Source of the DNA: Planctomycetaceae bacterium
Lineage (GTDB): Bacteria > Planctomycetota > Planctomycetia > Planctomycetales > Planctomycetaceae
Direction of reading: 5' to 3'
DNA length: 64,000 nucleotides
Assembly (NCBI GenBank): GCA_021732995.1
Contig: JAKFWA010000045.1
Location: 1 to 64,000, forward strand
In this document: positions 28,454-62,369 of the stretch, piece by piece
How positions within the stretch are numbered: position 1 is the first letter of the stretch
How the letters are laid out: every line of letters starts with the position of its first letter
Translations under genes and position numbers: made by a program
The notes under the pieces: generated by a model
The model's database searches: none
What the model was told of the DNA's origin: nothing
Seen by the model: only the letters and a program-made list of their open reading frames with translations

Positions 28454-28527
<74 letters not shown>

Positions 28528-28664
28528 CTATACAGCGTAAGGACTTACGACGATTTGTCGGAGTCACCAAATGCACTGCGGCAGGGAATTCGGCACTGAA
28601 TTTCCTGCTGGCACTGATCAGCCGTGCAGATAGCGACTGCCATCGCCCGCTCGGCACAACTCTT

Positions 28665-39673: not shown

Positions 39674-40498
39674 TCACCCCGACCATGCGGCGCATTCATT
39701 TCGGAATGAGCAACCGGGGCAAGCCTGTGGTGACGGGACGGGATAGAAATGACCGGATTCAATTGCGGACCAAACGCTTCGCATCACTCGCTTCGTGCGT
39801 TCGATCCGAGGTTGGTTCAGTGACACACCAAAGCATTCCAGCGTTGGAGCCTTCGCTTTCGTGATGACGGCGAATTCCAACTGGATTGGTTTGCCGGGCA
39901 CCAGATCCTTGGCGAGGGCCGCATAGAGCAAGAGCTGTTCGCCTGCACGTTCGGCTTGCCCTGCGGACCAACGCGACCTCGCTGTTTTGAGGTCGATGAT
40001 CTTCAGGGCGTCTGCGGTCTCGACGATCAAGTCGATACGACCAAGGATGTCGGGAAGGCCGGGGATCAGCGGCTCGCGTAGTTCTTCCTCCACCCCAAGC
40101 AATCGACCATCTGGTCGCGCGAAATCACTGGCACGAAAGGCTTCAATGACTCGATCAGCAGTCTCACCAATCACGTCGAGGTTTTCATGCTTGCCGAAGC
40201 GAATCGCGGTGTTGCTACACCGTGATTGCCAGCCTTCCCAAAACGCACTTAACAACTCGTCTCGGCTGGGCGGCTCATCTCCGGCCATCAATTGGTTGAA
40301 GTGATACTCCACCGCATGGTGAATCGCGCCACCGACAGCCAGGCTGGCGGTCGTAAACTTCTCGGGCAGTCCTGCCACATATTTGAAGTAATACCGCAAA
40401 GGACATTGCTGGTAGGTGCCGATGGCCGAGAAGCTGATGTAATCGCGGTGGTACAGAGGTTGAGTTTCCGATTGCGGACGGTCAACCGGCGCAATCAT
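39674..40498 (-). CDS. PD-(D/E)XK nuclease of the RecB/AddB family
   Basis: A 274-residue single-domain nuclease of the RecB-like PD-(D/E)XK superfamily. Visible elements: FSAIGTYQQCPLRYYFKYVAGLP (first Cys), GGAIHHAVEYHF (active-site His), GRIDLIVETADALKIIDLKTAR (the metal-binding Asp and the D-x-K of motif II/III), QLLLYAALAKDL, and the C-terminal CPGCSFRNECAAW, which with the first Cys makes the four-Cys pattern of an iron-sulfur cluster as in AddB, Cas4 and RecB-type proteins. No helicase part is present. It is the last gene of a long minus-strand cluster and overlaps the preceding gene by 4 bases (ATGA). Confidence 0.88.
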   Translation of the reverse strand: MIAPVDRPQSETQPLYHRDYISFSAIGTYQQCPLRYYFKYVAGLPEKFTTASLAVGGAIHHAVEYHFNQLMAGDEPPSRDELLSAFWEGWQSRCSNTAIRFGKHENLDVIGETADRVIEAFRASDFARPDGRLLGVEEELREPLIPGLPDILGRIDLIVETADALKIIDLKTARSRWSAGQAERAGEQLLLYAALAKDLVPGKPIQLEFAVITKAKAPTLECFGVSLNQPRIERTKRVMRSVWSAIESGHFYPVPSPQACPGCSFRNECAAWSG

Positions 40499-40980
40499 CG
40501 GCCGCCTCCCGCTCCGGCAGGCTGGGTATTCAGATCGTCAATCAGCTCGGACGCTTGTTGGACACCGAGTTGCTCTGCGGTGTTGACGCCGTAGCGTTGC
40601 AAGTGCGGCGTGAGATCCAACCGATGGCGAGTCGCGATGGCCTGGATCGCCCGGACCTGCGACTGAGTTGCCGCACGGCCATTCGGTCGACGTGAGACGC
40701 GATGTCCGTTCGTTGCTGCATTGCCGTTGCGGCTGACGTGTGGATCTGCGCCGTGGCCATTTCGGCCATTGTTGGCCAGAGCCGTCTGCTGCTGGTTCAA
40801 CTCTTCCTCGACGGATGCCTTGGCCAATCCGAAGAGATGACGCACGTGCTGCCGCAACCGTTCCGGGTCTCCGACAGCTCCAGAGTCCAATTCAAGCTCC
40901 AGGTTCGCGCTCGCTCCGAGCGAGCCGTAATCGGGCAGGCCGATTTTCTTCGACAGTCCGATATTCAGCCGTAGTGGCAT
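40495..40980 (-). CDS. Unknown protein, 161 aa, coupled to the nuclease
   Basis: The N-terminal 60 residues (MPLRLNIGLSKKIGLPDYGSLGASANLELELD...LRQHVRHLFGLAKASVEEELNQ) are folded-looking, with a beta-strand pattern like that of small single-strand-binding or replication accessory proteins. A low-complexity Asn/Gly/Arg-rich linker follows, then a helix-rich C-terminus (RAIQAIATRHRLDLTPHLQRYGV). No motif could be assigned. Start ATG at 40980 with AAAGGA upstream. Its stop overlaps the nuclease start, so they are probably made together. Confidence 0.65.
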   Translation of the reverse strand: MPLRLNIGLSKKIGLPDYGSLGASANLELELDSGAVGDPERLRQHVRHLFGLAKASVEEELNQQQTALANNGRNGHGADPHVSRNGNAATNGHRVSRRPNGRAATQSQVRAIQAIATRHRLDLTPHLQRYGVNTAEQLGVQQASELIDDLNTQPAGAGGGR

Positions 40981-41035
40981 AGTTGGCTGTCCTTTCTTGG
41001 TGAATCCGGCAGTGGTGAATACTCAATTTGTTTTG

Positions 41036-41227
41036 CTACTGACTCGCCGCGAGCCGTCGCAGCTTCGCGGACAGTTCATCAATCTCCTCGACCGTCAGCG
41101 GCTGGACGGTCTGCATTCCGACCAACTTCAAGTAAGGCCGCGCCGAGCAGTCGCCGCTCGGCGTGATTTCGTCCTTCCAGAAAGTCAGTGCGGCCAAAGT
41201 GGTGGCCAATTCGCGCTGTGTGAGCAT
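41036..41227 (-). CDS. Small protein, 63 aa
   Basis: Short acidic/hydrophobic protein MLTQRELATTLAALTFWKDEI...VQPLTVEEIDELSAKLRRL. The second half is a predicted amphipathic helix. A GGGAGAGCAGGAC stretch lies before the ATG at 41227. It sits in the cluster between the 161-aa gene and the clamp-like gene. Function is unknown; it could be a binding partner of one of them. Confidence 0.5.
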   Translation of the reverse strand: MLTQRELATTLAALTFWKDEITPSGDCSARPYLKLVGMQTVQPLTVEEIDELSAKLRRLAASQ

Positions 41228-41282
41228 GTCCTGCTCTCCCTGTAGAACTTGAGGATGACCAGCGAGAGAACAGACGCTCGGC

Positions 41283-42719
41283 TCAATCCGCACTCAGAGC
41301 TGGGACTGACCTTGGTGAGCGACGCTCCGCACTTCTGGCACGTGAGCCACGCCGTTGCTGTTTCAGACCTGAGATGAGAGCCCTGGTTCTTGTCAGGACG
41401 TCGCGCAGTGTTGTCCGCAACGCTTCACCCTCGGCAATCAACTCCGTCAATGACTTGGCTTCCACCTGTCCGTTGCCTGCGATCAGAGGAACCGGCTCAC
41501 GTCGCGAAGGCGTCGAGGACTGCTGGTCCCCCAGTACGTTGGAATTGGCTGCTGCGACTAAGGAACGAGGAGCCAGCGGTTTCGGTCCTTGAACCTGAAT
41601 CTCACGCACTGGCGATTCGATGCGTGAGGCGTTGGTATCGCCTTTCAGCACGGCGTCTTTGCCGAGCAACGCCCACAAGTAAGCACGGCGGTCCGATCGG
41701 CAGAAGGCAGGCAGGTCAGGATCGCGCAAGTGAATCTCGCGAAAGCCGAGTTGGACGGCTCGCGTCAGGTAGTTGCGGTCCGTGCTGACCCGGAGTTCGT
41801 CACCTTGCTTGCGCGAGTTACTCAGAAGCAACTCGGTCATCGCGTCTTGTTGCTCCGACTTAGCTCGAACAACGACAGCGCCGTTCAAATCCAAGGTCAC
41901 GGGTGCGCATGAGTCTTCAGCACCGGGCAGGCGACTCGCGGCAGAGAGCAGGAAACCAGCGTCGCTCTCCGCCAGTGACAAGGTCGTCTGAGCCGCAGTG
42001 GTCTCCGGCAACTGCGCATCAATGTCAGGGAAGCGGCGTTCCTTTTGGATCTGGAGGGCGACCGTCCAGGCATCAGCTTGCAGGAACACCCAGTCGGAGG
42101 TTCTGGCGAGCGCGACTGTCCGTGCCTCACGAATCGCCGGAGCGTTGAAGGCTCCCGACGCCGGAACAAGCACACTGTCGGACCAGGGGAACTGAAAGCC
42201 GCCGTGCAGCAACGCCTGCCGACTGTCGGTAGCGGCGATCTGACCATCGCTGCCGCGCAGACGGATATAACTCAGCGCGAAACGCAACGAATCCGGTTCT
42301 GTGGTGGCACTGGCATCGGCCATCGCCGCCAGAAAGTCATGACCCACCGGAGCGAGGTCTCTGACCACATCGGGCATGTCCGCCGGTTCCGCCAGCGGGC
42401 ACTCGGCAGCTTGGGGGATACCAGCGTCGCTCCAGCGCAGAGCAGCGACTTCTCCCGACCGTTCCATGCGGACCAAATCGCTCTGACGCCCTTCGCAGGT
42501 GACCAGAGCATCGATGGGAATTGTGAACGAGTCCGGCCGATACAAACCCGGCACTCGCCAAGTGACAGCGATCTCGCCGTGTCGCGCAAAGATCAACAAC
42601 TCCGTGGGAATGGTGTGGAAAGTGATGACGCAGGTGGAACGCCGAGTCTTGGTCAGACCCAAGGTCTGGCGAATCGTGCTGCGCAGGAGAGAAATCTGTC
42701 GTCGAGTCAGTTCAATCAC
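41283..42719 (-). CDS. Sliding-clamp-like (DnaN-fold) protein
   Basis: A 478-residue protein whose first 370 residues resemble the three-domain DNA polymerase III beta clamp. Domain 1 (about 1-110) has beta-clamp-like FHTIPTELLIFARHGEIAVTWRVPG...FTIPIDALV. Domain 2 (about 125-240) has FLAAMADASATTEPDSLRFALSYIRLRGSDGQIAATDSRQALL, VLVPASGAF and KERRFPDIDAQLPE (the FPD-x-x-x-x-P element of DnaN). Domain 3 (about 245-365) has LTLDLNG, STDRNYLTRAVQLGFREI and LWALLG. A basic Arg/Ser-rich tail follows. It is divergent from DnaN and longer. A GTG start at 42719 follows GGAGG. It may load onto DNA and recruit the neighbouring nuclease; this is inferred. Confidence 0.72.
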   Translation of the reverse strand: MIELTRRQISLLRSTIRQTLGLTKTRRSTCVITFHTIPTELLIFARHGEIAVTWRVPGLYRPDSFTIPIDALVTCEGRQSDLVRMERSGEVAALRWSDAGIPQAAECPLAEPADMPDVVRDLAPVGHDFLAAMADASATTEPDSLRFALSYIRLRGSDGQIAATDSRQALLHGGFQFPWSDSVLVPASGAFNAPAIREARTVALARTSDWVFLQADAWTVALQIQKERRFPDIDAQLPETTAAQTTLSLAESDAGFLLSAASRLPGAEDSCAPVTLDLNGAVVVRAKSEQQDAMTELLLSNSRKQGDELRVSTDRNYLTRAVQLGFREIHLRDPDLPAFCRSDRRAYLWALLGKDAVLKGDTNASRIESPVREIQVQGPKPLAPRSLVAAANSNVLGDQQSSTPSRREPVPLIAGNGQVEAKSLTELIAEGEALRTTLRDVLTRTRALISGLKQQRRGSRARSAERRSPRSVPALSAD

Positions 42720-42921
42720 GGTGCCTCCGGGAGCAGGGATGGTGGTGATGGGATTTCGTGTTTGGCCGGTGTTGCACCGTTCGGCGCATCACTTGGCGGT
42801 ACTGCTGCATTGCCCAGGCCAGGCCGACCCACGCGAGAAGCGCGGGCCAGCCCAGCAGGAAGAAAGCGACGAGGCTGATGAGCCCACAGAACGCGACGTA
42901 GCGTTCGCTATCCGCTTCCAA
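42712..42921 (-). CDS. Small one- or two-helix membrane protein
   Basis: A short frame with a hydrophobic stretch, RYVAFCGLISLVAFFLLGWPALLAWVGLAWAMQQYRQ, predicted as one or two transmembrane helices, followed by a His/Arg-rich tail. The only start in the frame is TTG at 42921, with no good ribosome-binding site, so the gene or its start is uncertain. Its end overlaps the clamp-like start by 8 bases, suggesting coupling. Confidence 0.4.
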   Translation of the reverse strand: MEADSERYVAFCGLISLVAFFLLGWPALLAWVGLAWAMQQYRQVMRRTVQHRPNTKSHHHHPCSRRHRD

Positions 42922-42961
42922 GCGGGCGAGGCGTTGTCGTCGCTCACCAAAGTTGGCGGCT

Positions 42962-43198
42962 TCAGCTCACCCAACGCAAAGAGGTCAGCGGCAAGCACGC
43001 CACATCGCCGGAACGATCCTGCTCCAGGTCATCCCAATCGATCATGTGCGGCACGAGCTGATCTGGTTCCGGATCGAAGTCGCGGTTGCTCAGATCGAGC
43101 AGTGAGAACCCTCGGCTGCGAATGACGTCCAAGTCTTCGCCGGTGGCGAGTGCCACATCGCGATCGAGGTCTTGTTGAAGCGAGTTACATCCAGGCAT
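42962..43198 (-). CDS. Small acidic protein, 78 aa
   Basis: MPGCNSLQQDLDRDVALATGEDLDVIRSRGFSLLDLSNRDFDPEPDQLVPHMIDWDDLEQDR: a very acidic small protein starting at ATG 43198 with TGGAGA upstream. No motif is recognised. Placed in the operon between small proteins and the membrane segment gene. Confidence 0.5.
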   Translation of the reverse strand: MPGCNSLQQDLDRDVALATGEDLDVIRSRGFSLLDLSNRDFDPEPDQLVPHMIDWDDLEQDRSGDVACLPLTSLRWVS

Positions 43199-43292
43199 GT
43201 CAGTCTCCAGGTGAAAGGACGACCGCCCGACGAGGCGGTCGTGAAGAACACAAACCGCCCCGCACATGCGAGGCACACTCAAAGCAACATGT

Positions 43293-43538
43293 TTAAGCTG
43301 GCGGACTCAGCCAGTTGGCTTGCAGCCAACCCATCTCCGCCGCCAGAGCCTCAGTCCGCATGGTGAATGGTCCGAGGACCGGTCCGTTCACGGGAGCCAG
43401 GTCAGCCGTCCATTTCCCATCCGCTGTGGGCTCCACGTGCGAGCCGCGACGGATCGACAATTGGCCGAGCTGACCGAGATCAATGTCTTCGCTATAGACG
43501 CAGCGGACATGGCCGCTGGCTTCAATGAGCAGCTCCAC
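43293..43538 (-). CDS. Small protein, 81 aa
   Basis: MELLIEASGHVRCVYSEDIDLGQLGQLSIRRGSHVEPTADGKWTADLAPVNGPVLGPFTMRTEALAAEMGWLQANWL. The GTG start at 43538 follows AGGAGG, and the ribosome-binding site overlaps the stop of the upstream gene, so it is coupled to it. No family could be named. The regular pattern of a beta-rich N-terminus and a C-terminal helix suggests a real, folded accessory protein. Confidence 0.6.
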   Translation of the reverse strand: MELLIEASGHVRCVYSEDIDLGQLGQLSIRRGSHVEPTADGKWTADLAPVNGPVLGPFTMRTEALAAEMGWLQANWLSPPA

Positions 43539-43547
43539 GACGACCTC

Positions 43548-44501
43548 CTAGCGCGGCCGACGCAGGATGTTGCGACGGGGTCGATCGACCATCAAACCGT
43601 CGAGTGACGATTGCACGCCCGACAACTGCGACGCCAACCGTTGACGCAACGAATCGCTGTCACGCAATTGCTGTGGCTCAACACCGCTCAACACTCGCTG
43701 TGCCCGCTGCACCAAGTCGTCGAGTTGTGCATTCGAGCGAACATTCAAATCGCCAAACCGCGCGAAGAACTCGGACAAGTTGGTAACGGCCGAATCGCGG
43801 AAGACTTTGGGTTTCCCATCAGCATCACCACTGAGCCGTTCTCCGAGGTGCTCAATGAGTCGCGTCAGTTCTTCAATGAAGGCTTGCTCGGCCAGCTGCA
43901 CCGCTTCATCAAAGCGGGCTTGCACCCGCTGACACTCCTGCTCGTAGAGAGCTGGGTTGAGCTGCTGTAGATAGTTGGGCGGTTCGACCGAAGGATATTC
44001 GTGCTCAATACCGAACAGGCCGATCAATGACGCGGGATAGTCGCTGGGGTCGAACAAGTCTCCCAAGCGTCGACTCGCCGCCGAACGCAGATCAACGTAG
44101 TGTCGATCGAGTTCGTTGACCGCCTCCACCAGATCACGCCGGAAGTTCGCGACCTGCCGATCAAAGTCACTGATCGATCGCTGCGGAATGAGGCGGATGC
44201 CCGGTTCCGGATACGGCAATGAAACCGCTCGCCAGTAGCACTGACAGCGGCCCTTGATCGCCGTGACCGCTTTGAAGGCCGGATGCGACGTATCCAGCAG
44301 CTTCTTGCCTGCCGATAAGAACTTGCCTTCAGCACCGAACGAATCCGCAGCCTGATTCTTCTGCTCGGTCGTCAACGACTTGCGAGTGCCAAGCCAGGTG
44401 AAGCTCAATCGCGCGGCTGCCATCGTGTCGCGCAGTCGCTCAGCGGCTGCCGAAGCCGTGGACGAACCGGTTGCCGGTTCATCGAAGAGTGATGTTGTCA
44501 T
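43548..44501 (-). CDS. Unknown protein, 317 aa, helix-rich
   Basis: A 317-residue soluble protein. Conserved-looking blocks include LSFTWLGTRKSLTTEQKNQAADSFGAEGKFLSAGKKLLDTSHPAFKAV, the LPYPEPGIRLIPQRSISDFDRQV block and RRLGDLFDPSDYPASLIGLFGIEHEYPSVEPPNYLQQL, followed by a long helical, coiled-coil-like region (QARFDEAVQLAEQAFIEELTRLIEHLGERL). It lies between the AAA+/membrane genes and the clamp-like gene in the same cluster. The general pattern resembles DUF3150-type phage and plasmid proteins, but this is not certain. ATG 44501, AGAGGA upstream. Confidence 0.65.
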   Translation of the reverse strand: MTTSLFDEPATGSSTASAAAERLRDTMAAARLSFTWLGTRKSLTTEQKNQAADSFGAEGKFLSAGKKLLDTSHPAFKAVTAIKGRCQCYWRAVSLPYPEPGIRLIPQRSISDFDRQVANFRRDLVEAVNELDRHYVDLRSAASRRLGDLFDPSDYPASLIGLFGIEHEYPSVEPPNYLQQLNPALYEQECQRVQARFDEAVQLAEQAFIEELTRLIEHLGERLSGDADGKPKVFRDSAVTNLSEFFARFGDLNVRSNAQLDDLVQRAQRVLSGVEPQQLRDSDSLRQRLASQLSGVQSSLDGLMVDRPRRNILRRPR

Positions 44502-44598
44502 TCATGTCCTCTGGAAGGGTGATGCCAAAAGAAAACGCCGCTCGATCCCGCAGGAACCGAACGGCGTAGTTGAAATGAGGTGTGGTAGTTAACAGTAG

Positions 44599-45534
44599 CT
44601 ATTGGTTGATGACAGGTAACGGAAACGGGACTCCCTTGTACCGTTCCTGCAAGACTGCCTGCATGATCTCTATTTCTCTTAACTGGACCTGACGAAGCTG
44701 TTCCAAGACCAGCCCCTTCTCGATCAAGTCACGTTCCGGTCCCGAGGGGATCTTCTCCACGACCTCGGGATTAGCCTGAACGATTCCCACAAGCAGCTGC
44801 GCTGTCTTCATGCGCTGATCGACGGTATCAGTCGGAATGGGAATATGTTGCTGCTGCATGAACTCATTTAGCTTTTGCCTCAACTCAAGAAACTCATTAT
44901 CGACGGCTAGATGGTTATTGACCATTCGCGTGAGTTCTGGGTCGACATTCACTGTTGAAACGGATTTCGCCGCATTCCCGCCGACCCGCAATTGCTCCGC
45001 TACGTGTTCGTAATACTGTTCCGCAGGCTCCTGACCAGCTGGAGTTTGAAATCGAATCGCGTGCAGCTTGCCAACCGCAGTTTGCCAATACACAACAGTG
45101 GCCTGGCTCTTTTGTATGTAGGCTGTGATTTGCTTCTGCTTTTCGTTGTCGCTCGGAGTTTGAATGCCTCGTGCCACGATCGCGGTAAGAAAGCAGACGG
45201 CCATAAGCACGGACACATTTACAGAAACACTAGGCCAGTGCAGTGCATCCGTATTACTCACCGCCGCCAGTTCCTGTACGTCTTCTGGAACGCTGCGGCC
45301 AAGTTTTTTCTCAAGCAGATCACCAAGTTGATAGACATGGTCTCGAAAAGCGTAGAACAGCCAGTAAATGCAAATCCCGGCGATAGTAAGCATGCCAAAA
45401 TTTTTATCGGGTAGAACCGAGACACTCAGCACCATCATGATTGGGGAACAAAGCGTGGCCACACCGACACATACATGAACCGCGCGAGCCTGTCGTTTTT
45501 TTATGGAAGCCTTGTCAGGCAGAGGTGTGCTCAT
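44599..45534 (-). CDS. Membrane protein with coiled-coil domain, 311 aa
   Basis: A 311-residue protein with two or three N-terminal transmembrane helices (AVHVCVGVATLCSPIMMVLSVSVL, FGMLTIAGICIYWLFYAF, VSVNVSVLMAVCFLTAIVARG) and a long soluble helical part rich in Gln and Glu (KLNEFMQQQHI...ERDLIEKGLVLEQLRQVQLREIEIMQAVLQERYKG). Base composition is lower in G+C than its neighbours, so it may be an insertion into the operon. Function unknown. It overlaps no neighbour. Confidence 0.65.
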   Translation of the reverse strand: MSTPLPDKASIKKRQARAVHVCVGVATLCSPIMMVLSVSVLPDKNFGMLTIAGICIYWLFYAFRDHVYQLGDLLEKKLGRSVPEDVQELAAVSNTDALHWPSVSVNVSVLMAVCFLTAIVARGIQTPSDNEKQKQITAYIQKSQATVVYWQTAVGKLHAIRFQTPAGQEPAEQYYEHVAEQLRVGGNAAKSVSTVNVDPELTRMVNNHLAVDNEFLELRQKLNEFMQQQHIPIPTDTVDQRMKTAQLLVGIVQANPEVVEKIPSGPERDLIEKGLVLEQLRQVQLREIEIMQAVLQERYKGVPFPLPVINQ

Positions 45535-45865
45535 AGGCAGTGGCTCCTTTAACCAAATACGGAAGCAGTGGCCGGAACGAAAATTCCCGCCTCAACCGGA
45601 AATCTACATAGCCAAGCTGCAAATCACAGCTGGAATCGCAAACAGGGAATGCCGCCGGGTTCACAGAGATAAGTCGTGAGTGCAGGCTGTCCCGTTTCAC
45701 CACGAATCTCTTCTGAGCCGAGTAATTCCGGCTCAGATCGCAGCAACGCTGACATGACGTCGAAGAACATCAGTCATTCTTCAGGAAAGACCTTTGGGGG
45801 TTCGCATCAGCCGTCACACGCAGTTCGAAAGACCCGCCATTAAGTCGCCCAACGACTTTCGTTCG
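45535..45865. other. Intergenic region within the cluster, no gene seen
   Basis: About 330 bases between the two membrane-protein genes. No gene, hairpin or repeat was recognised. It probably holds the promoter of the 311-aa membrane protein. Confidence 0.35.
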
Positions 45866-46732
45866 TCACTTGCCCCGACGAATCGACGCAGCGATCTGAT
45901 CGAAGGTTTCCGCGTGACTTACATAGCGACTACGCGTGGTCCACATTCGAAGTTCGACCCAGACATCGGGACATTCGACGAGGCGGGTATGCCATACTAG
46001 ATTTACTCCCGTCGACGTCCCCGTCTGCACCACGTCGATGGTAGGCAGGCCATCGACTTCACCGGCTTGCATCTCGCCGGACTTGGGATCGATAAGGTTT
46101 TCAGCGAGCGCTGCCGCTGACCGTTGGGCAAGTTCCTTCAGTGACTGGACTGCAAGATCCTGCTTTGACACTAACATGGCTCTAAGAGACACGTCATTTT
46201 TCCGGTCGCTCATGTCAATGGACGATGCAGGCGAGTTCGGATTCTCGACGATCTCCCAGGTCGGATGTGTGGAAAACCGGATTGCTCCCGCTGCGAAGGA
46301 ATTCTCGCGCCACGGTCTTGAAGCTATCAACTCCTGTTGAGCCCTCTGGGCAGCGTTTATGGCCGGAATGAACAATGCGGTCATCATGGACAGAAGGCCG
46401 ATCGCAAGCAGTCCAAAATTGACCTTACGCAACCAAGCTACGTGGGTTGGTGGTGGAATCTGTCGGAGTGTTCGCCACACACGAAAGAATAGAGCTAAAC
46501 CGCCGCAGGCGACCGCACCAATCATTGACAGCACGGCCACCGTTTGCAGGGGTGAGAAGTCACCATCGATCGTCGGATGTATCAAGCCCAAGATGACCGC
46601 CAGTTGCTCGACACCAGCAAATGAAAGCCACAATCCTGCCAAGAACCAGCCAGCTTGGCCCCACGGCCACTTCAAAACAGGCGGGCAATTTGATGGTTCC
46701 GTCTCTAGCGATGAACTTTGATCTGCGGGCAT
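45866..46732 (-). CDS. Membrane protein, 288 aa
   Basis: A 288-residue protein with three N-terminal membrane helices (AGWFLAGLWLSFAGVEQLAVILGL, LQTVAVLSMIGAVACGGLALFF, VNFGLLAIGLLSMMTALFIPAI) followed by a soluble domain of about 150 residues that is probably extracytoplasmic (AAGAIRFSTHPTWEIVEN...AGEVDGLPTIDVVQTGTSTGVNLVWHTRLVECPDVWVELRMWTT). No motif is recognised. It may form a pair with the 311-aa membrane protein. Confidence 0.65.
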   Translation of the reverse strand: MPADQSSSLETEPSNCPPVLKWPWGQAGWFLAGLWLSFAGVEQLAVILGLIHPTIDGDFSPLQTVAVLSMIGAVACGGLALFFRVWRTLRQIPPPTHVAWLRKVNFGLLAIGLLSMMTALFIPAINAAQRAQQELIASRPWRENSFAAGAIRFSTHPTWEIVENPNSPASSIDMSDRKNDVSLRAMLVSKQDLAVQSLKELAQRSAAALAENLIDPKSGEMQAGEVDGLPTIDVVQTGTSTGVNLVWHTRLVECPDVWVELRMWTTRSRYVSHAETFDQIAASIRRGK

Positions 46733-46807
46733 CTTGAAATCACTCCCGTTATGGGTGAGTCGAGATGACGCAACGAAAGGCGATCAAGAATTGCTTCAGG
46801 CTGTCGC

Positions 46808-46905
46808 GGTTCAGCGCAAAAAGAGAGCGCTGAACCACGACCGCTCCAGCTACCCCCGCCAAGGGGCAAAAGAACAGCACATGGCCAGCGCCCCTTACGG
46901 GGCGC
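46808..46905. repeat. Two adjacent perfect inverted repeats
   Basis: GGTTCAGCGC/GCGCTGAACC (46808-46817, 46827-46836) and GCGCCCC/GGGGCGC (46888-46894, 46899-46905) form two hairpins within the roughly 440-base gap 46733-47176, where no protein gene is seen. A 13-base palindrome CCACCTAAGGTGG lies further on at 47148-47160. They could be terminators after the AAA+ gene or parts of a small RNA. Confidence 0.5.
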
Positions 46906-47176
46906 GGCTCAAGGTGCTGCTTCTTTTGAATTCAAGAACCTTGCGGTTCAGGTTGGCGGAATTAGCTGGAAGCAGTGCTTGACGCTCGCGCGTCGTTCAA
47001 ATTGTCAGAACGAAGTTGATATCAACTTTGTGAATGGTCTTACGTTTTGGCTCCAAAACAGGTTCGAACGAGGTCATCGCACACATTCGGCGACAGGCGT
47101 TTTGACTTCCATGCTACGGTCGAGAAAGAAACATCTCAATGAGTTCGCCACCTAAGGTGGTTAGGCACCGGGACAG

Positions 47177-48658
47177 CTAATTCAAAGATGAATCGCGGCT
47201 TACCTTTCTCCGTGATCCAGGTTTCACTTCAGACCTCTGATAGATGCCCGGCTGTTGCGCCGAGAGGCATCGACCGCTGGCCCACGTCCGAAGCCTGTCA
47301 ACGCTCTCGGCAGCGGTCACTGCGACCGGCACGACGTTTTGAGCCGCTTGAATGAGCGGTACATCGAGCAAGGCCGACAATCGGCAGCAGGCTTTGATCT
47401 CCGCCCCCGTCCAGTCCGTGTCGTCCGGCCGCCGTTGATTGCGATCAATCGCAAACTGTTCCAAGTAGATATCCCAGATCGCAGCCTTCTCCTCGTGCTT
47501 CGGCAGGTCGAGGAAGAAGATCCCATCGAAGCGTTCCGAACGCCCAAACTCGGGAGGCAACCGAGAGATGTCATTCGACGTGCAGACGACGAACACGTCT
47601 GACGTGTGATCGTTCAGCCAACTGAGGAACGTCCCGAACATTCGCGAGGCCACACCCGAGTCACCGCTGCCATTGACTCCTGCAAACGCCTTTTCGACTT
47701 CATCGATCATGGCCACGCAAGGCGCCATCGCATCGATGACCTTGAGAGCCTGGCGCGTACGTTCCTCGCTTTGACCGACGAGCGAGCCCATCAACTGGCC
47801 CACATCCACGATCAGGACCGGACGACCGACTTCCTTCCCCAACGCCCGGCAGAACTGGCTCTTGCCACAACCAGGTGGTGACAGCAGCAATACCCCGCGC
47901 GGACGCTTGGCGTGATTGCCACGACTCGGTTGCAGCAAGGCCCGCTTACAAAAACTCTTGAGCGAGCCCAGCCCGCCAAGAGTGCTGAAGTCATCCTGCC
48001 CCCGATGCAGCTCCAACAAGCCCGACTTCTTGAGCTGGCCTGATTTCAATTCCCAGACGGCGTCGCTCGTGATCCGTCCATGTCGCACCAGGGACAGGCT
48101 GAAGGCATTCTCGGCTTCCAACCGCGTTAAACCTGCGGCGGCATCGAGCACGGTTTCGAACTCGGTCTGACTGGGAAGTTCAGAGGTGTCTGTAGCGATG
48201 CCTCGCGCGATCTCCGTCAGTTGTTCCCGATCCGGCAGTTCATGCTCGATGACCACGAACAGCTTTTCGAGTTCCACCGGCAACTGCACGACCGGGGCCA
48301 GGATCACGATGATCGTCCGGTTCTGCTTACCGGCGAGGATCTGCTGCGTCAGGGCCTGCACGATCTCCGCCGACGACAGGAAGCGATGAAAGTTCTCCAG
48401 TACCAGCAAGGCTGTGCCATCGGGTGTCGCGAGCGTACTCGCAGCTCGAATCGCAGCGAGTGGATCACCACCACTCTGATCCGTGTTACCACCCTTCACT
48501 TTGAGACCTTGGTCGATATTCCAACTGGCAGTCTGCCAGCCTTCGCTTTGGCACAACTGCGAGATCGCGAGAATGGCTTCCTGTTGTTCGTGAGTTTCAA
48601 TCCAGATCGCGGTAAAGCACGCGCGCACGTACTCCGCCAGATGGTCGGTTAACTTCAT
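47177..48658 (-). CDS. AAA+ ATPase, Ycf46-like
   Basis: A 493-residue ATPase. The N-terminal 230 residues carry a second, degenerate ATPase-like fold (TAIWIETHEQQEAILAISQLCQ, ALLVLENFHRFL, IIVILAPVVQLPVEL). The C-terminal AAA+ domain has Walker A LLSPPGCGKSQFCRALG, Walker B CVAMIDEVEKAFAG, SRH-like VVCTSNDISRLPPEFGRSERFDGIFFLDLP, and sensor elements. This layout matches the Ycf46 family of cyanobacteria and chloroplasts. It may remodel or load a partner such as the clamp-like protein. The ATG at 48658 follows AAGGAA. Two membrane proteins lie between it and the rest of the cluster. Confidence 0.83.
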   Translation of the reverse strand: MKLTDHLAEYVRACFTAIWIETHEQQEAILAISQLCQSEGWQTASWNIDQGLKVKGGNTDQSGGDPLAAIRAASTLATPDGTALLVLENFHRFLSSAEIVQALTQQILAGKQNRTIIVILAPVVQLPVELEKLFVVIEHELPDREQLTEIARGIATDTSELPSQTEFETVLDAAAGLTRLEAENAFSLSLVRHGRITSDAVWELKSGQLKKSGLLELHRGQDDFSTLGGLGSLKSFCKRALLQPSRGNHAKRPRGVLLLSPPGCGKSQFCRALGKEVGRPVLIVDVGQLMGSLVGQSEERTRQALKVIDAMAPCVAMIDEVEKAFAGVNGSGDSGVASRMFGTFLSWLNDHTSDVFVVCTSNDISRLPPEFGRSERFDGIFFLDLPKHEEKAAIWDIYLEQFAIDRNQRRPDDTDWTGAEIKACCRLSALLDVPLIQAAQNVVPVAVTAAESVDRLRTWASGRCLSAQQPGIYQRSEVKPGSRRKVSRDSSLN

Positions 48659-48715
48659 GGAGATTCCTTCGTGGGGAAGAGAGACGGCACCCATCCACGA
48701 TGGGTTTGATGGGAG

Positions 48716-48937
48716 CTAGGGCTCCAAATGAGCGATCTGCTTTTCAAGTTGTTCCAGCCCCCGACGTCGCTTGGCCAACGCGTGCCAAGCCTGTCGCAGC
48801 TGCGCTACACGCTGAGCCAGTGCCCGCCTTTCACGATCGAGTCGCCGTCGGCACTTGGCCAATCGGCGGGCGTGCCCCTTTGACAGCCCGCAACGAGATT
48901 GCGTCTCGGGCGGACGATGCTGATCGACAGCAATCAT
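48716..48937 (-). CDS. Small basic coiled-coil protein, 73 aa
   Basis: Arg/Lys-rich, helical: CRRRLDRERRALAQRVAQLRQAWHALAKRRRGLEQLEKQIAHLEP forms an amphipathic coiled coil. It may bind DNA or a partner protein. It overlaps the DUF2997 gene by 4 bases (ATGA), so it is translationally coupled. Confidence 0.55.
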   Translation of the reverse strand: MIAVDQHRPPETQSRCGLSKGHARRLAKCRRRLDRERRALAQRVAQLRQAWHALAKRRRGLEQLEKQIAHLEP

Positions 48938-49128
48938 GGGCTGCTCCTCAATGACTGATGGTTCGTTGTGGTTTGGTGGAACTCGGTCTTGAGCACTTCA
49001 CCGGTCTGTTGTCCGAGTGCCCGCTCAATGAACTGACTGGCTTGCCGACATTCGCTGCCCACGAAGCCTTTGGTTTCGACGCTCGTCTGCCCGTTGTGAG
49101 CGATGGTGATTTCAATGGTCTTGCTCAA
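48934..49128 (-). CDS. DUF2997 protein
   Basis: A 64-residue protein, MSKTIEITIAHNGQTSVETKGFVGSECRQASQFIERALGQQTGEVLKTEFHQ, matching the DUF2997 pattern (I-x-x-x-G-x-x-x-V-E-x-x-G-F-x-G-x-x-C...A-L-G). The Cys after G-F-x-G is conserved in the family, whose role is unknown. In cyanobacteria it is often next to a Ycf35/DUF1257 gene, as here, where the two overlap by 4 bases. Confidence 0.8.
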   Translation of the reverse strand: MSKTIEITIAHNGQTSVETKGFVGSECRQASQFIERALGQQTGEVLKTEFHQTTTNHQSLRSSP

Positions 49129-49493
49129 GTGGCACCTCCCACCTGAATGGTGAGCTTGATCGACCCATCCGCGAGTGATTGCTCTGTCACGGTGTGCCCT
49201 CGACGCCTCCCTTCAATCCGAGCCTTCTCAACCGCATACGCTTGCAGGTAGCGATCGAGTTGCTTCGGGTCGCCCCAACGACCATTGAAGTTGTCGAAAG
49301 CGATCTTGGCCGTCGCGACATCACACACCACCGGGTAGAGCCACTCCGGCAAGCGCACCGCCCAGCCTATGGCCGACGTGCTAAACAGTTTCGTTTCACC
49401 GAAGACCGGCTCGGGCAACGACAATCGACCACACGCCGCCCGAATGGCGACCGGGTCTCGAATCTCCGTCTGAATCTGCACGACATGCGACAC
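49125..49493 (-). CDS. DUF1257 (Ycf35-like) protein
   Basis: A 122-residue protein starting at GTG 49493 behind GGAGG (MSHVVQIQTEIRDPVAIRAACGRLSL), then WAVRLPEWLYPVVCDVATAKIAFDNFNGRWGDPKQLDRYLQAYAVEKARIEGRRRGHTVTEQSLADGSIKLTI. This matches DUF1257/Ycf35, of unknown biochemical role, found in cyanobacteria, chloroplasts and others beside DUF2997 and Ycf46-like ATPases. First gene of the minus-strand cluster. An upstream in-frame extension is unlikely because the family starts MSH. Confidence 0.83.
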   Translation of the reverse strand: MSHVVQIQTEIRDPVAIRAACGRLSLPEPVFGETKLFSTSAIGWAVRLPEWLYPVVCDVATAKIAFDNFNGRWGDPKQLDRYLQAYAVEKARIEGRRRGHTVTEQSLADGSIKLTIQVGGAT

Positions 49494-49565
49494 GATGTTG
49501 ATCCTCCAATTCAGAGCAACGACGACAGGACCGACCATCGGTCCCATAGGGGAGGCGACCCAACG

Positions 49566-49981: not shown

Positions 49982-52900
49982 ATGGGCACCAGTCGCAGTA
50001 GCAACAATTGGATCAGCATCAGCGAATCAAACTTCCCTTGGGAACGCGAGGCGTTGGAATTCGTGCGTGCTCAGTTCCCGTCTCAGGAGCCCTACCGAGC
50101 ATGGTCTAACTTTGAATTCATCGCCGATGACGGCAGTGTGAATGAAGTTGATCTCTTGGTCTTTACGCCACAGGGTTTCTTCCTCATTGAGATCAAAAGC
50201 CAGCCTGGTCGGTTGTCCGGAGATGCCGGGACATGGACTTGGCAGAATGAAGGCAAACTGAAAACGGTCGACAATCCTTATCAGCTCGCCAACTCGAAGG
50301 CGAAAAAGCTGAGACCGTTGTTGCAGCGTCAGAAGGCATGCAAAGTCAAAGGCCAGATTCCATACATCGACGCGTTGGTCTTCTGCTCTGCACCGGGGCT
50401 GAATTGCGAATTACAGGGAACGGCGAGATCACACGTCTGCCTACGAGATCGTCCTGCGGATGGTGAGCAAGCCGCACGCGCCGGCATCATGTCAGCGATT
50501 CTGCGGCGCGACTGTGATGGGCTCGATCCCGTTGCCAGAGGCGTTCACGATCGCCCGACGATGAAAATCGTTCTGCAATCGATCGATCAGGCCGGTATCC
50601 GACCGTCCCAACGCAGCCGCAAGGTGAGTGACTACGTCCTCGACAAGCTCATCAACGAAGGGCCGGGGTATCAAGATTGGCAAGGCACCCATGCGACGTT
50701 GAAGAACGCTCGCCGCCGTATTCGTATCTACAACGTGCGAGCCGGCGCATCGAACGATGAGCGGCAAACCATTGAACGCGCGGCTCGCCGTGAAGCCGAG
50801 CTGTTGGAAAGTTTGCAGCATCCAGGTGTGTTGCGCCGCGAAGGGTTCACGGAACATGAGTTAGGTCCGGCACTCATCTTCGAACACGATCCATCGGCGT
50901 TGCGATTGGATCACTATCTCGCCCAAAACCAGCAGAGAATCACCGTCGATCAACGCCTCGACATTCTCAGGCAAATCGCCGAAGTCATGCGATTCGCTCA
51001 CGAGAAACGCATCATTCATCGCGCTTTGTGTCCGCAAAGCATTCTGATCACGACACCCGCGCCCAACCGGTTGCAGGTCAAAGTCTTCAACTGGCAGGTG
51101 GGTTATCGCGGCGACGGGTCATCAAGCACCGACTTTTCGCGCGTGGCGGTTTCCGCGACTTCGCACGTCGATCGCTTGGTGGACGATGCCAGCACCGCCT
51201 ACATGGCTCCCGAGGCCATCTCTGAGGCGGGCCAGATGGGCGAACATCTCGACGTGTTCTCGCTCGGAGCAATCGCCTACCACCTCTTCTCTGGCGTGCC
51301 TCCCGCTAGCAATGGGCTGGAACTCAGCAACAAACTGCGGGAGTCCAAAGGGCTCCAGATCAGTTCGGTGATGAATGGCGCCGGAACCTGCCTCCAAGAG
51401 CTTATTCAGTGGAGCACGCACGCCGATGTAGGGATGCGGCCAGACTCCGTTTCAGACTTCTTGGACCTCTTGGAGAAGATCGAAGACGAAGCGACGACGC
51501 CAGATCAGGAGCACGTTGTCGATGACCCAGATGCGGCGAAGAAAGATGACTTGCTTCCCGGTGGCTTCAAAGTCATTCGCCGGATTGGCAAAGGCGCGGT
51601 CAGTGTGGTGTTTTTGGTCGAGCGTGATCAGCAACAAATGGTGTTGAAGGTCGCAGCCAATACGGAGTTCAACGAGCGCCTCAAAGAGGAAGCGGCGATC
51701 CTCAACAAGTTGCGACATTCGCACATCGTCGAACTCCTGGGCACGACCCACGTCGGCGATCACGAAGCCTTCTTGATGCGTCCCGTTCTGGTGACCGTGA
51801 ATGATCTCCCTGAAGTCGAAACATTGGGACGGCGGTTACGAAAAGAAGGCCGTCTGCACGTTGATCTGCTGCAACGGTTCGGTGAGGACCTGCTGGGTGT
51901 TCTGAACTTTCTGGAAGAGCAAGGCATCAACCATCGCGACATCAAGCCGGACAACATTGCGGTGGGACATGTAGGCTCTGGCAAACAACTCCATCTGGTG
52001 CTGTTTGACTTCTCTCTGTCGCGAACTCCTCCAGAAAACATCCGAGCTGGAACTACGGGTTATCTCGATCCATTTCTTCCGTTGCGACAGCACAAACGGT
52101 GGGATCTGCACGCTGAGCGATTTGCGGCCGCCGTCACGCTGTATCAATTGGCAACCGGCCCCAACGTGTTTCCGAGATGGGGCGATGGCACCAGCGATCC
52201 GTCACACCTGGACTGCGAAGCGACGATTGATGGGGACCTGTTTGACGCTTCTCTGCGCGAAGGCTTCGTTGAATTCTTTCAAAGAGCTTTTCGTCGCGAT
52301 ACGAATGGGCGGTTCGACAATGCCGAACGCATGCTGGCGGCTTGGCGAGACTGCTTTGTCGGCCTGGATGAAACCGAACCGTCGTCCGTACATGAAGATG
52401 AGCTTGGCTTGGCTCAGCGACTCGCGTCGGCCGTCTTCGATACTCAGATTCATGAATTGGGATTGGGCGTTCGCGCGACAAATGCGTTGGATCGCGCCAA
52501 CATTCTGACCGTCGAAGATTTGCTGACCGTCCCCGTGAAACGCCTGATGCGCTTGCGAGGTGTCGGAGACAAAACGCGACGCGAGATCGTGGCGACCGTT
52601 CGCACGTTGCGTGAGCGCTTGGGACGTCCGCAAGCGACGCCGGCGGCGTTGTCCGCAGACGAGCCGGATAACCGTTCGGCTGTTGATGAACCTACCCATC
52701 TCAGTGTCGATCAATTGATCGCGCGACTCACTCGCTTGAGTCCACGTTCGGGAGACTCAGCCTCAGAAACATTGCAGGCAATCCTCGGGCTGGACGCGCG
52801 GCTGACGGATCGCTGGCCCAGTCAGTCTGAGATCGCGCCGTTGATCAATGTCACGCGAGGACGCATTGGCCAGCTCATCAGTAAGTTCCAGCTCAGTTGG

Positions 52901-54235
52901 TCAAAAGAGGCTGCCCTCACCAAATTGCGAAGCGACATTGCAGACATCCTTGTCGCGGCAGGCGGTGTGATGTCGGTGGCGGAATTGGCGGACGCAATTC
53001 TGGTAGCGCGCGGCTCCATTGAAGAAGAGCCACGTCGCAGCCTCATCGCGACTGCGGTTGTCCGAGCCGCTTCGGAAGTAGAACGCACGATGGCCGAGCC
53101 TCGGTTTCACGTGCGACGTGATCAAGGCCGAGTCCTCGTTGCCACCAGCCTGGACTTAGCCACCTATGCGGCACGGGTTGGAGACGAAGCCGATTCGATC
53201 GCTGGCGAAGATCCGCTGGTGGCTCCCGCGCGTGTGCTGCAACGCCTCCGCGAGGTGTCTCTGCCAGACGCAGCATCGCCGTTGACCGACGCGCGCCTCG
53301 TGCGGCTGTCAGCCAGTGCGTCTCGGATCGCAGCCCTTTCTAGTCGCCAAGAGCTCTATCCGCGTGGCATGGATGCCAGCCGAGCTCTCAAGCTCTCGCA
53401 GGGTGCTCTCTATGGAGTCCCATTCCTCACCGAGCAGCAGATTCGCGACCGTGTCATCAGTCGCTATCCCGAAGCGGCTCCACTACCGGACCGACCCTGG
53501 CTGGACGATCTCATGCGGGAGATCGGTTTTGAACCGGACGATACGCGCGGTGACGGTGGGTATGTCTCTCGACAGAAACTGGAGTCCTATGTCACCAGCG
53601 GGAGTGAATCGCTGTCGCGTCTGCCGACTGCTTCCACTCCGGTATCAACGCCAGAGATCACGCCTGAAATCGCTGATGCGCGGCAGTTTGAAGAACGGCT
53701 GCAACGTGGACTCAAGGATGGCTCATTCCTGGCCTTGGTGGTTCCGCCTAAATCGTATCAGCAAGCGGCCCGTGACTTGGTTGATCAGTTCTCCGTCGAG
53801 TTAGTGGACTTCGAAGGTCTCTTCATCGACGCACTCCAAGAGGTCGCGTCGAAGGCGGGGGCGAAGTGGGATGTCGTCGTGAATGCGGACGCTGTCCCAG
53901 GTTCAGACCATTGGAAGAAACTGCTGACGTTGGTCAATCGAGCCATGCCCTTGGTGGAACAGTCTCTCGTCAACGGCCAGTCACCCACAGCGTCCCTCAA
54001 GCGTTCCATTCTGCTGATCTATCCGGGCTTACTCGCACGCTATGACCAAATGCCGTTGCTCGAACGACTACGCGACGAAATCGGACGTGGGCGAGGACTC
54101 AAATCCTGCTGGCTGTTGGTGCCTGGCGATCAACAGCCCATGTTGGATGGCAAAGCCGTGCCCTTGATTAGCGCCGGCCAACGCACGCGTATCCCAGACA
54201 GTTGGCTGAGGAATGAACACCGAAGTTCGAAATGA
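49982..54235 (+). CDS. pglW: BREX type 2 serine/threonine kinase PglW
   Basis: A 1,417-residue phage-defence protein. A NERD nuclease-related domain is at the N-terminus (NEVDLLVFTPQGFFLIEIKSQPG, residues about 10-150). A first kinase-like domain (about 225-500) lacks catalysis: the HRD position reads IIHRALCPQ and the DFG position FNW. A second kinase domain (about 530-800) has IGKGAVSVVF, VLKVAA, INHRDIKPDNIAV and DFS. A helix-hairpin-helix (about 820-880, LGLGVRATNALDRANILTVEDLLTVPVKRLMRLRGVGDKTRREI) follows, then helix-turn-helix-like and unrecognised C-terminal regions. PglW is thought to phosphorylate other Pgl components. First gene of the locus. Confidence 0.88.
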   Translation: MGTSRSSNNWISISESNFPWEREALEFVRAQFPSQEPYRAWSNFEFIADDGSVNEVDLLVFTPQGFFLIEIKSQPGRLSGDAGTWTWQNEGKLKTVDNPYQLANSKAKKLRPLLQRQKACKVKGQIPYIDALVFCSAPGLNCELQGTARSHVCLRDRPADGEQAARAGIMSAILRRDCDGLDPVARGVHDRPTMKIVLQSIDQAGIRPSQRSRKVSDYVLDKLINEGPGYQDWQGTHATLKNARRRIRIYNVRAGASNDERQTIERAARREAELLESLQHPGVLRREGFTEHELGPALIFEHDPSALRLDHYLAQNQQRITVDQRLDILRQIAEVMRFAHEKRIIHRALCPQSILITTPAPNRLQVKVFNWQVGYRGDGSSSTDFSRVAVSATSHVDRLVDDASTAYMAPEAISEAGQMGEHLDVFSLGAIAYHLFSGVPPASNGLELSNKLRESKGLQISSVMNGAGTCLQELIQWSTHADVGMRPDSVSDFLDLLEKIEDEATTPDQEHVVDDPDAAKKDDLLPGGFKVIRRIGKGAVSVVFLVERDQQQMVLKVAANTEFNERLKEEAAILNKLRHSHIVELLGTTHVGDHEAFLMRPVLVTVNDLPEVETLGRRLRKEGRLHVDLLQRFGEDLLGVLNFLEEQGINHRDIKPDNIAVGHVGSGKQLHLVLFDFSLSRTPPENIRAGTTGYLDPFLPLRQHKRWDLHAERFAAAVTLYQLATGPNVFPRWGDGTSDPSHLDCEATIDGDLFDASLREGFVEFFQRAFRRDTNGRFDNAERMLAAWRDCFVGLDETEPSSVHEDELGLAQRLASAVFDTQIHELGLGVRATNALDRANILTVEDLLTVPVKRLMRLRGVGDKTRREIVATVRTLRERLGRPQATPAALSADEPDNRSAVDEPTHLSVDQLIARLTRLSPRSGDSASETLQAILGLDARLTDRWPSQSEIAPLINVTRGRIGQLISKFQLSWSKEAALTKLRSDIADILVAAGGVMSVAELADAILVARGSIEEEPRRSLIATAVVRAASEVERTMAEPRFHVRRDQGRVLVATSLDLATYAARVGDEADSIAGEDPLVAPARVLQRLREVSLPDAASPLTDARLVRLSASASRIAALSSRQELYPRGMDASRALKLSQGALYGVPFLTEQQIRDRVISRYPEAAPLPDRPWLDDLMREIGFEPDDTRGDGGYVSRQKLESYVTSGSESLSRLPTASTPVSTPEITPEIADARQFEERLQRGLKDGSFLALVVPPKSYQQAARDLVDQFSVELVDFEGLFIDALQEVASKAGAKWDVVVNADAVPGSDHWKKLLTLVNRAMPLVEQSLVNGQSPTASLKRSILLIYPGLLARYDQMPLLERLRDEIGRGRGLKSCWLLVPGDQQPMLDGKAVPLISAGQRTRIPDSWLRNEHRSSK

Positions 54236-54366
54236 CAACCTTCGTTGATGTGGTGACGCCATTGACCAGCGTCAGTTCGCAACCGCCTGGCATTGGTTAC
54301 ACTCCAAAGTGCATAACGGACGACTGACGACAGGCCACCGCACACGAAGTCTTTGAGGATTCCACC

Positions 54367-54726
54367 ATGACCACCGTCGCGATTGTCTCCATTCCTGCTG
54401 ATGAAGGCACGACCTATCAAGCGGTTTCCGGTGAACGTCACTCAGAGGGACGCACTGTCGGAGAAGCCCTGGATGCTCTCACCCTGCAATTGCCAGAGGA
54501 CGATGGTGAATCGTTGATCGTGGTGCAGAGGTTTCGAGGAGATGCGTTCTTCTCAGCCGCTCAGCGGGCTCGACTCAAGTTGCTGATGGAGCGTTGGCGT
54601 GGCTGCCGTGATCGTGGCGAGACGTTCCCTGCTGACGAGCAAGCTGAATTGCAGGCCCTCACTGACGCCGAACTGGCGGCTAGCGCGGCGCGATCGGCGA
54701 AGGTGGCTGAGGAATTCGGCCTATGA
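54367..54726 (+). CDS. Small protein paired with HNH endonuclease
   Basis: A 119-residue protein. The N-terminal half (VAIVSIPADEGTTYQAVSGERHSEGRTVGEALDAL) looks like a compact alpha/beta fold similar to HicB-like/DUF domains; the second half (FSAAQRARLKLLMERWRGCRDRGETFPADEQAELQALTDAELAAS) is helical. It overlaps the HNH gene by 4 bases (ATGA). The pair resembles a toxin-antitoxin-like or accessory module inserted between pglW and pglX. Function is not known. Confidence 0.7.
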   Translation: MTTVAIVSIPADEGTTYQAVSGERHSEGRTVGEALDALTLQLPEDDGESLIVVQRFRGDAFFSAAQRARLKLLMERWRGCRDRGETFPADEQAELQALTDAELAASAARSAKVAEEFGL

Positions 54727-55124: not shown

Positions 55125-55207
55125 TCCTACGCTGGTTCTCCTTGCCGCAGTGCTCCGGCCAGACCGGGACGCAACCCGAATACCAATCCTCACGACGATA
55201 ACCAACC

Positions 55208-60185: not shown

Positions 60186-60318
60186 CAACAGCCAAGGTGC
60201 GAAACAAGGCCGCCACGGAAGTTGTTGAGGATGGGAGTGGTGATGAGAGGCATCCGTAATTATGCAGTTGCGTGTGCCGCCCCCTGTAAATCCAAGTCAG
60301 TTTCGACAGAATCACTGT

Positions 60319-62321: not shown

Positions 62322-62369
62322 GAGTACCGCTTTCAAGAACCTCTGACTTCAGACCACTGATGAATGCCT

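Follow-up and report, generated by a model that had tools for sequence, protein, structure and literature searches.

We analysed a 64,000-nucleotide stretch of DNA from a Planctomycetaceae bacterium (assembly GCA_021732995.1, contig JAKFWA010000045.1), called the window below, and found in it a minus-strand gene cluster that consists of a stable core and an exchangeable slot behind it. The stable unit is the core, namely a DUF1257 protein, a DUF2997 protein, a classical AAA ATPase, a DUF3150 protein and two small proteins, p81 and p106. The slot is filled here by a DnaN-like clamp, a protein named p161 and a nuclease, and in sister loci by a complete ubiquitin-like conjugation cassette. We tentatively regard the cluster as the backbone module in a family of planctomycete integrative elements, with a role in element replication, recombination or repair, a reading to which we give slightly less than an even chance. 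The window covers the first part of a contig of 67.9 kb (end at 67,906) within a 9.39-Mb genome, and presents in order a tRNA-Arg gene, a tyrosine integrase, the minus-strand cluster and the genes of a BREX type 2 system.

The core was traced by its 317-aa protein (43548-44501; this and all other genes of the cluster lie on the minus strand). Its gene is detected at 33 places in 15 of the 294 genomes sampled from the phylum, with up to seven places in one genome. Among these places, 26 have been classified, four were dropped as fragments or contig ends (L065-L068, with no cassette in L066) and three lie outside the set. The core loci were picked because they hold the 317-aa gene, first 22 and later 26 of them; in the set of 22, the AAA ATPase is present in all, DUF2997 and p81 in 21 each, and DUF1257 and p106 in 20 each. 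A second copy of the whole set is located on another contig (C12) of the same genome, with identities of 48% for the clamp, 63% for the nuclease, 79% for the 317-aa protein, 82% for the AAA ATPase and 85% for DUF1257, and 20 other planctomycete loci, besides the window and its second copy, show the same gene order. A chance neighbourhood is ruled out by this order, kept across many genomes. An independent search that started from the clamp gives 18 loci, 17 of them from planctomycetes by record title, and the 317-aa gene and p81 adjoin the clamp in all 16 that have upstream DNA. Ten of the 294 genomes sampled from the phylum have strong clamp places, 12 in total, of which 10 lie within 2 kb of a 317-aa place; the remaining two (L055 and L056) have the clamp, p161 and the nuclease together with p106, without AAA or DUF3150. 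A sequence-only reading of the window had proposed to check whether the clamp-like, nuclease, AAA, DUF1257 and DUF2997 genes recur together, which holds in many loci for the clamp, AAA, DUF1257 and DUF2997, however for the nuclease in only part of them.

Among the 26 core loci, the slot has the clamp in ten, the ubiquitin-like cassette in 12, neither in four (L063 among them) and both in none. The cassette occupies the clamp's place and comprises four genes, for a ubiquitin-like protein (Ubl), an E2-like protein that carries an HPH...C motif as well as a Cys-rich tail, a protein of the JAB family and an E1 of the ThiF type. The Ubl matches ThiS above the Pfam cut-off in two of the three cases tested (26.6 and 27.5 against 22.5 bits). 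Motifs were checked in 14 loci, these being the 12 core loci plus L040 and L054: the JAMM, E2 HPH...C and E1 GxGxxG motifs are present in all 14, and 12 have the JAB motif that contains Glu. Eight of the 294 genomes in the phylum sample have 15 strong E2 places between them, none at a clamp place, and an E2 profile search of the window's own genome gives nothing. With the core constant and the content of the slot swapped, one AAA machine therefore seems wired to exchangeable targeting parts. As a further arrangement, L063 (11504-12849) has the core followed by p161 and the nuclease without any clamp.

A strict mutual exclusion of clamp and cassette was considered and rejected, being broken by two loci from a scan of genome contigs, both on metagenome contigs. 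In L040 (Ca. Anammoximicrobium) the order is DUF3150-p81-p106-Ubl-E2-JAB-E1-clamp, and an AAA is missing from the 3.6 kb upstream of DUF3150; in L046 a cut E1 is followed by a Mg-chelatase-type AAA (PF01078, E-value 1.9e-17; 383-1078), the clamp, p161 and the nuclease. The clamps of the two loci are sisters (SH-aLRT, an approximate likelihood ratio test, 99), and the arrangement with both devices thus represents one lineage.

The protein of 478 aa at 41283-42719 is predicted to be a three-domain beta-clamp with a real DnaN fold. It has no Pfam match and matches PHROG_947 ("DNA polymerase processivity factor") at 1.8e-6 (E-values are given here and below unless stated otherwise), and a profile of eight of its relatives finds one entry in the PDB, 7rzm, a DNA polymerase III beta subunit (1.5e-5). 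A single-chain AlphaFold2 model built from 16 sequences, with a mean local confidence (pLDDT) of 85.4 and a template modelling score (pTM) of 0.73, matches beta clamps in Foldseek at 8.9e-21 over model residues 1-356, and E. coli DnaN with a Z score of 29.2 and a root-mean-square deviation of 3.1 over 340 aligned residues in the same range. The identity over the best structural match is only 14%. The clamp fold that the sequence-only reading had suggested for this protein is well borne out by these comparisons. Past domain three, the model has a low-confidence linker (375-420) and then a helix (424-467). The family profile also recovers the host DnaN of 370 aa, from which the clamp gene is distinct, as host dnaN sits elsewhere in the window's genome (G000:C113), and gives weak matches close to where the sequences of closed chromosomes start. 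Relatives were looked for in a viral contig collection, where none of 59 pattern stretches is related, and in a phage collection, where none was found at E 0.01. In one genome (G121), both clamp genes (L012:9991-10842 and L021:10984-11835) stop at 283 aa, inside the third domain, and may represent a frameshift, decay or a genuine short form.

An alignment of E. coli DnaN with 56 clamp rows was used to count residues at the pocket and DNA-facing positions of the former. In the partner-peptide pocket, Pro242 is kept in all 56 rows, Thr172 in 54 and Leu155 in 50, with Phe241 being Phe in 47 and Tyr in 9; on the DNA-facing side, Arg152 is kept in 52 and Arg24 in 39. The family also has the ATD-x-(H/R) and GRFP-type motifs as in DnaN and keeps much of subsite 1 of the peptide pocket. 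Judged by these residues, the clamp appears to retain much of its partner-peptide pocket.

The nuclease gene (39674-40498) matches PDDEXK_1 at 4.1e-31 and the exonuclease family PHROG_69 at 6.6e-27, and by its motifs the product is a RecB/Cas4-type PD-(D/E)XK nuclease with QxxxY and four Cys. In an alignment of 10 rows, each of the four Cys, a pattern already seen in the sequence-only reading, is kept in nine and gapped in one, and H60, E137, D156, D169, K171, Q188 and Y192 are conserved in all 10. The nuclease is presumably of the iron-sulphur (Fe-S) type; phmmer gives no match to it in the PDB. Its partner gene p161 (40495-40980) overlaps the nuclease gene and belongs to no known family: the window protein has no Pfam match, and the family, with 13 relatives aligned, has weak matches (best 0.0041). 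Plausibly, the clamp may tether the nuclease.

The AAA side of the cluster is exchangeable as well. In a survey of 397 genomes of the class, about 81 have strong clamp places, about 140 in all (hand count, E 1e-43 or better, four candidates per genome scored); from these places 60 loci were chosen non-randomly, with stronger matches on longer contigs. Among the 60, 29 have the AAA/DUF3150 core (module A) and three a partial core; 16 have a MoxR-VWA-DUF6744-type-p95 set (module B), and four a MoxR-related protein with a DUF2201 VWA protein (module C). Three others have the DUF6744-type and p95 genes with no MoxR found, five are standalone with p106 (L055, L056, L101, L104 and L105), and the ubiquitin-like cassette is found in none of the 60. 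The ATPase of module B matches bpMoxR at 2.3e-51 and the third gene DUF6744 at 2.6e-10, with a weak VWA match below the cut-off (7.5e-4), and the VWA gene of module C matches DUF2201 at 5.2e-23. Profiles made from the MoxR and VWA proteins of modules B and C find no loci other than those of type B or C, no general MoxR/VWA scan of every A locus having been made. DUF3150 and DUF6744-type proteins show no likeness in hhalign (probability 0.4%). When the module labels are mapped on a quick tree of 89 clamps, 12 changes are required, shuffled labels require 31.0 on average, and none of 200 shuffles is as low; module B needs at least five changes, and L086, a module B locus, falls in a starred group of otherwise A-type clamps. 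Repeated swaps of the AAA-type module beside the clamp are shown on this sequence-derived tree. The distances of clamp, DUF3150 and AAA correlate over 43 loci with r of 0.74, 0.74 and 0.77 (none of 2000 permutations as high in each case). Upstream of standalone clamps, a DUF932 gene, of a phage/plasmid-type family, is found at L056:9273-10091 (1.2e-7), and by eye also in L105 and L095.

Among the core proteins, the AAA ATPase (47177-48694) matches AAA at 5.6e-26 and PHROG_8638 at 6.5e-89 over residues 4-476. Its best NCBIfam matches are CDC48 (1.3e-18), CdvC, PAN and FtsH, and those to the replication factor C large subunit (0.15) and Rad24 (0.11) are weak. On the strength of these matches it is of the classical CDC48/PAN/FtsH type, outside the clamp-loader clade. 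Its two halves, compared by hhalign for an inactive AAA domain at the N-terminus as in the FtsH-type ternary systems, give a probability of 0.7%, and the label Ycf46-like would refer to architecture and context. The 317-aa window protein itself has no Pfam match and none in the PDB (best E 0.57 for the model, 0.19 for the profile). A distant relative in the outgroup locus L031 matches PF11348 (DUF3150) at 6.1e-11, and the model (pLDDT 80.3) matches a phage DUF3150 protein at 2.1e-12; the protein is thus predicted to have the DUF3150 fold. DUF2997 (48934-49128) matches PF11211 at 2.8e-13. The DUF1257 (Ycf35-like) protein has a weak Pfam match (PF06868, 0.044), and its family profile finds the annotated DUF1257 on plasmid CP114559 at 2e-14. 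The longest DUF1257 open reading frame is 49125-49547, and the start at 49493 taken in the sequence-only reading gives 122 aa, the length of the open reading frame in 8 of the 19 other loci of the 22-locus set showing the gene. No Pfam family is found for the small acidic p106 (42962-43282), which also lies ahead of standalone clamps (L055, L056), nor for p81 (43293-43538). Beside the DUF1257 gene of the second copy, a protein of 1296 aa (L003:15028-18918, on G000:C12) has no Pfam or PADLOC match and by eye is P-loop ATPase-like with repeats. In L031 (9679-12083), AAA, DUF1257, DUF2997 and DUF3150 are followed by a weak Mu-Gam match (1.9e-4) and a RecA-like AAA_24 (4.4e-26).

The remaining genes of the cluster include the accessory p85 (41036-41293), whose position differs among loci, the small hydrophobic p69 (42712-42921), an optional coiled-coil-like protein of 73 aa (48716-48937), all three from the list of open reading frames and locus comparison, and two variable accessory proteins of 311 aa (44599-45534) and 288 aa (45866-46732) with no counterpart in the other loci of the 22-locus set. 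A minus-strand cluster with overlapping stop and start junctions had been described from the letters, and both cluster and junctions are present in the list of open reading frames.

The setting of the cluster is that of a mobile element. On the plus strand of the window lie a tRNA-Arg (acg) gene (28454-28528), the likely integration target, and the tyrosine integrase (28709-29887; Phage_integrase 5.4e-14). Relatives of the integrase are found in 8 of the 22 core loci and in 11 of the 60 clamp loci, the latter count by a profile of the same family only. A clear attachment-site repeat of the tRNA was not found in the genome, which gives only other tRNA-like places and short fragments. Partial cores are present on the Nitrospirota plasmid CP114559 (AAA-DUF1257-DUF2997-DUF3150-p81) and in phage Tunturi_3 (AAA, DUF2997, p81 and DUF3150, with a Cas4-domain exonuclease annotated further on), and a contig from the viral collection, L054, has an integrase, serine recombinases, the core and the ubiquitin-like cassette. 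The location on an island or element, as anticipated from the letters, agrees with the tRNA and integrase in the window, the integrases in other loci and the plasmid and phage cores. Divergent from DUF1257 and outside the module, BREX type 2 begins with PglW (49982-54235, plus strand; PADLOC PglW 1501 bits); the range 49982-64000 further includes PglX and BrxC, with a Septu PtuA-PtuB pair between them according to PADLOC.

We favour the reading as a backbone module because of the clamp fold and its kinship to host DnaN, the recurrence of the core, the swaps, the co-divergence of clamp and core, the mobile setting, the intact nuclease residues, the pocket and DNA-facing residues kept in the clamp family, and the recombination-type neighbours (AAA_24 and the weak Mu-Gam match) in the outgroup L031. 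In such a module, the core would form an AAA machine for remodelling or dismantling DNA-bound protein complexes, and the slot would supply its targeting device, a ubiquitin-like tag or a sliding clamp. The element's own clamp would encircle DNA and recruit p161 and the nuclease, the latter acting as an exonuclease that resects ends, to intermediates of replication or recombination. The assembly of clamp, p161 and nuclease would be turned over by the AAA machine, and the AAA may remodel the clamp. Such a module would serve to replicate, recombine or repair the element with partial independence from host DnaN.

Several points weigh against this reading. The clamp diverges faster than the core, with a mean identity of 0.34 versus 0.59 and 0.61, which also suits a conflict role, and shared descent explains part of the distance correlations, as the permutations keep common descent. 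In the window clamp, Leu177 of DnaN is replaced by Ala and Val247 by Gln; Arg80 and Lys198 are not conserved in the family, and the C-terminal pocket residues cannot be aligned with E. coli DnaN. Among the 60 clamp loci, the nuclease is found in eight (one on the other strand) and p161 in 21, and the nuclease is therefore not essential to the clamp; a crude motif scan finds no conserved clamp-binding peptide in the nuclease or p161. A DNA polymerase is not identified in the module, the function proposed is inferred from sequence and models, and the antiphage systems that adjoin the loci fit a defence role equally well.

These last neighbours bring in the best of the rival explanations, one that we nevertheless consider rather unlikely, in which the module itself is an antiphage or conflict system. 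Here AAA or MoxR-VWA would be a sensor and threshold device dependent on nucleoside triphosphates, and the clamp with its nuclease, or the ubiquitin-like cassette, would be the effector arm. In 6 of the 8 loci probed, large genes next to DUF1257 have matches to defence families, with both loci and genes chosen by eye and without a random-locus control; the matches are type I restriction, DISARM DrmD twice, Gabija A and B, and helicase/HEC-type. BREX and Septu lie in the window, and PglW/PglX are also present in L021 and in the module B locus L123. The fast divergence of the clamp would fit as well, as would the bpMoxR match of module B, a domain of the MoxR-vWA-beta-propeller ternary systems, and the FtsH ternary systems with a Ubl-conjugation set, as described in the available part of Kaur et al. 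(2020, PMC7159879). However, the core is also present in a phage and on a plasmid, two of the eight probed loci have no defence match, SNF2-type helicase matches are unspecific, and no classic toxic effector is recognised besides the nuclease; moreover, changing defence cargo beside a constant core is expected of a carrier element.

A speculative extension of the backbone-module reading, to which we give a small chance, is that one AAA-type remodelling machine on mobile DNA would receive its targets through exchangeable addressing devices, either a ubiquitin-like tag written by an E1-E2-JAB cassette or a dedicated sliding clamp with a nuclease. As the two devices share an operon in the lineage of L040 and L046, a bacterial counterpart of the eukaryotic ubiquitin-PCNA-Cdc48/p97 link would be conceivable, in which the clamp or clamp-bound proteins of the element would be the tagged substrates. 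If it is true that AAA accepts a Ubl tag or a clamp as an address, this would amount to a novel principle of design in mobile elements or immunity and to a parallel, in bacteria, of PCNA-ubiquitin-p97 biology. In any case, DUF1257, DUF2997, the Ycf46-like AAA and DUF3150 are proteins without a settled role, and the link to a true clamp, a nuclease and, in other loci, a full ubiquitin-like pathway gives them a DNA-linked hypothesis with testable partners.

It is quite improbable, in our view, that the clamp is a spare processivity factor for element replication, carried next to the AAA core by co-transport without a working link. The five standalone loci with clamp, p161, nuclease and p106 (listed above) and the 16 of 26 core loci without a clamp would be expected in this case, and phage-coded clamps are known, e.g. 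in cluster O mycobacteriophages according to the available part of PMC4351075. However, a complete AAA-type module adjoins the clamp in 49 of the 60 loci of the non-random set, and three unrelated modules fill the place with repeated swaps, which is hard to obtain via hitch-hiking alone. Finally, the sequence-only proposal that AAA loads the clamp is hardly credible. The two genes indeed adjoin in 29 of the 60 clamp loci; however, the AAA is of the wrong type (CDC48/PAN/FtsH), 16 of 26 core loci have no clamp, and the clamp occurs without this AAA in five standalone and 20 MoxR-VWA loci.

We then compare the cluster with known systems. A literature search that covered few subscription papers found no description of a clamp in such a module, and among 5.39 million papers three name DUF1257 or DUF2997 and none DUF3150; the cyanobacterial DUF2997-ycf35-fed7 cluster is described in the available part of PMC4284462. 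The clamp resembles DnaN in its three-domain fold, its motifs, much of pocket subsite 1 and the profile link to host DnaN, and differs from it in the extra low-confidence linker and C-terminal helix of the window clamp, in its 14% identity, and in that members of the family are invariably found at variable loci, next to genes of AAA type or of phage/plasmid type. The nuclease is like the Cas4/AddB/RecB-type Fe-S nucleases in PDDEXK_1, four Cys and QxxxY, with Cas4 models matching at 2.3e-10 (NCBIfam, below cut-off); however, no CRISPR or helicase partner is identified here, and its partners are p161 and the clamp.

Among whole systems, the cluster O (Corndog-type) mycobacteriophages have an AAA 31% identical over 93% of the window AAA and, according to the part of PMC4351075 available, genes for a DNA polymerase III beta subunit, Ku and ParB-like proteins in one region. 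They differ in several respects: at E 0.01 none of their sequences matches the window clamp, a phage Dylan protein matches DUF3150 only weakly (0.039), and they are phages, not integrative elements. The PRTRC cassette, with JAB, ThiF and ParB-related genes, is annotated on Burkholderiales plasmids. On one Paraburkholderia plasmid, NZ_CP046917 (L035, 376-11080), PRTRC A (JAB) and ThiF lie close to a gene resembling DUF3150 (tblastn 2e-13) and to a VWA gene of the DUF2201 family, and DUF2201 adjoins the DUF3150-like gene there as it adjoins the clamp in module C. However, no clamp is in the annotation of NZ_CP046917, and its DUF3150-like protein has no Pfam family at E 0.01; the window has no PRTRC genes, no ThiF or JAB is among the Pfam matches of the cluster, and the E2 search of the genome is empty. 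This plasmid is a second ubiquitin-like/DUF3150 neighbourhood, outside planctomycetes.

The MoxR-vWA ternary systems of the FtsH type are the last family to be compared. As described in the available part of Kaur et al. (2020, PMC7159879), they pair a two-domain FtsH-type AAA with MoxR-vWA, one variant has a Ubl-conjugation set (JAB, E1, RING, Ubl and E2), and a scheme of sensor and threshold plus effector arm is proposed for them in print. To the extent covered by that part, the likeness includes the classical AAA, the Ubl-conjugation variant, planctomycete hosts, and the bpMoxR of module B. The conjugation set is absent from the window and present in 12 of the 26 core loci. The differences are that the clamp-bearing A loci have no match to the B/C MoxR or VWA profiles, that here Ubl is a protein of its own and E2 bears the Cys-rich tail as a fusion, and that the word "clamp" is absent from the main text of PMC7159879. 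Since the system fails or leaves open the defining features of each known family compared, it would be best regarded as an AAA-centred, effector-swapping kind, a variant of its own.

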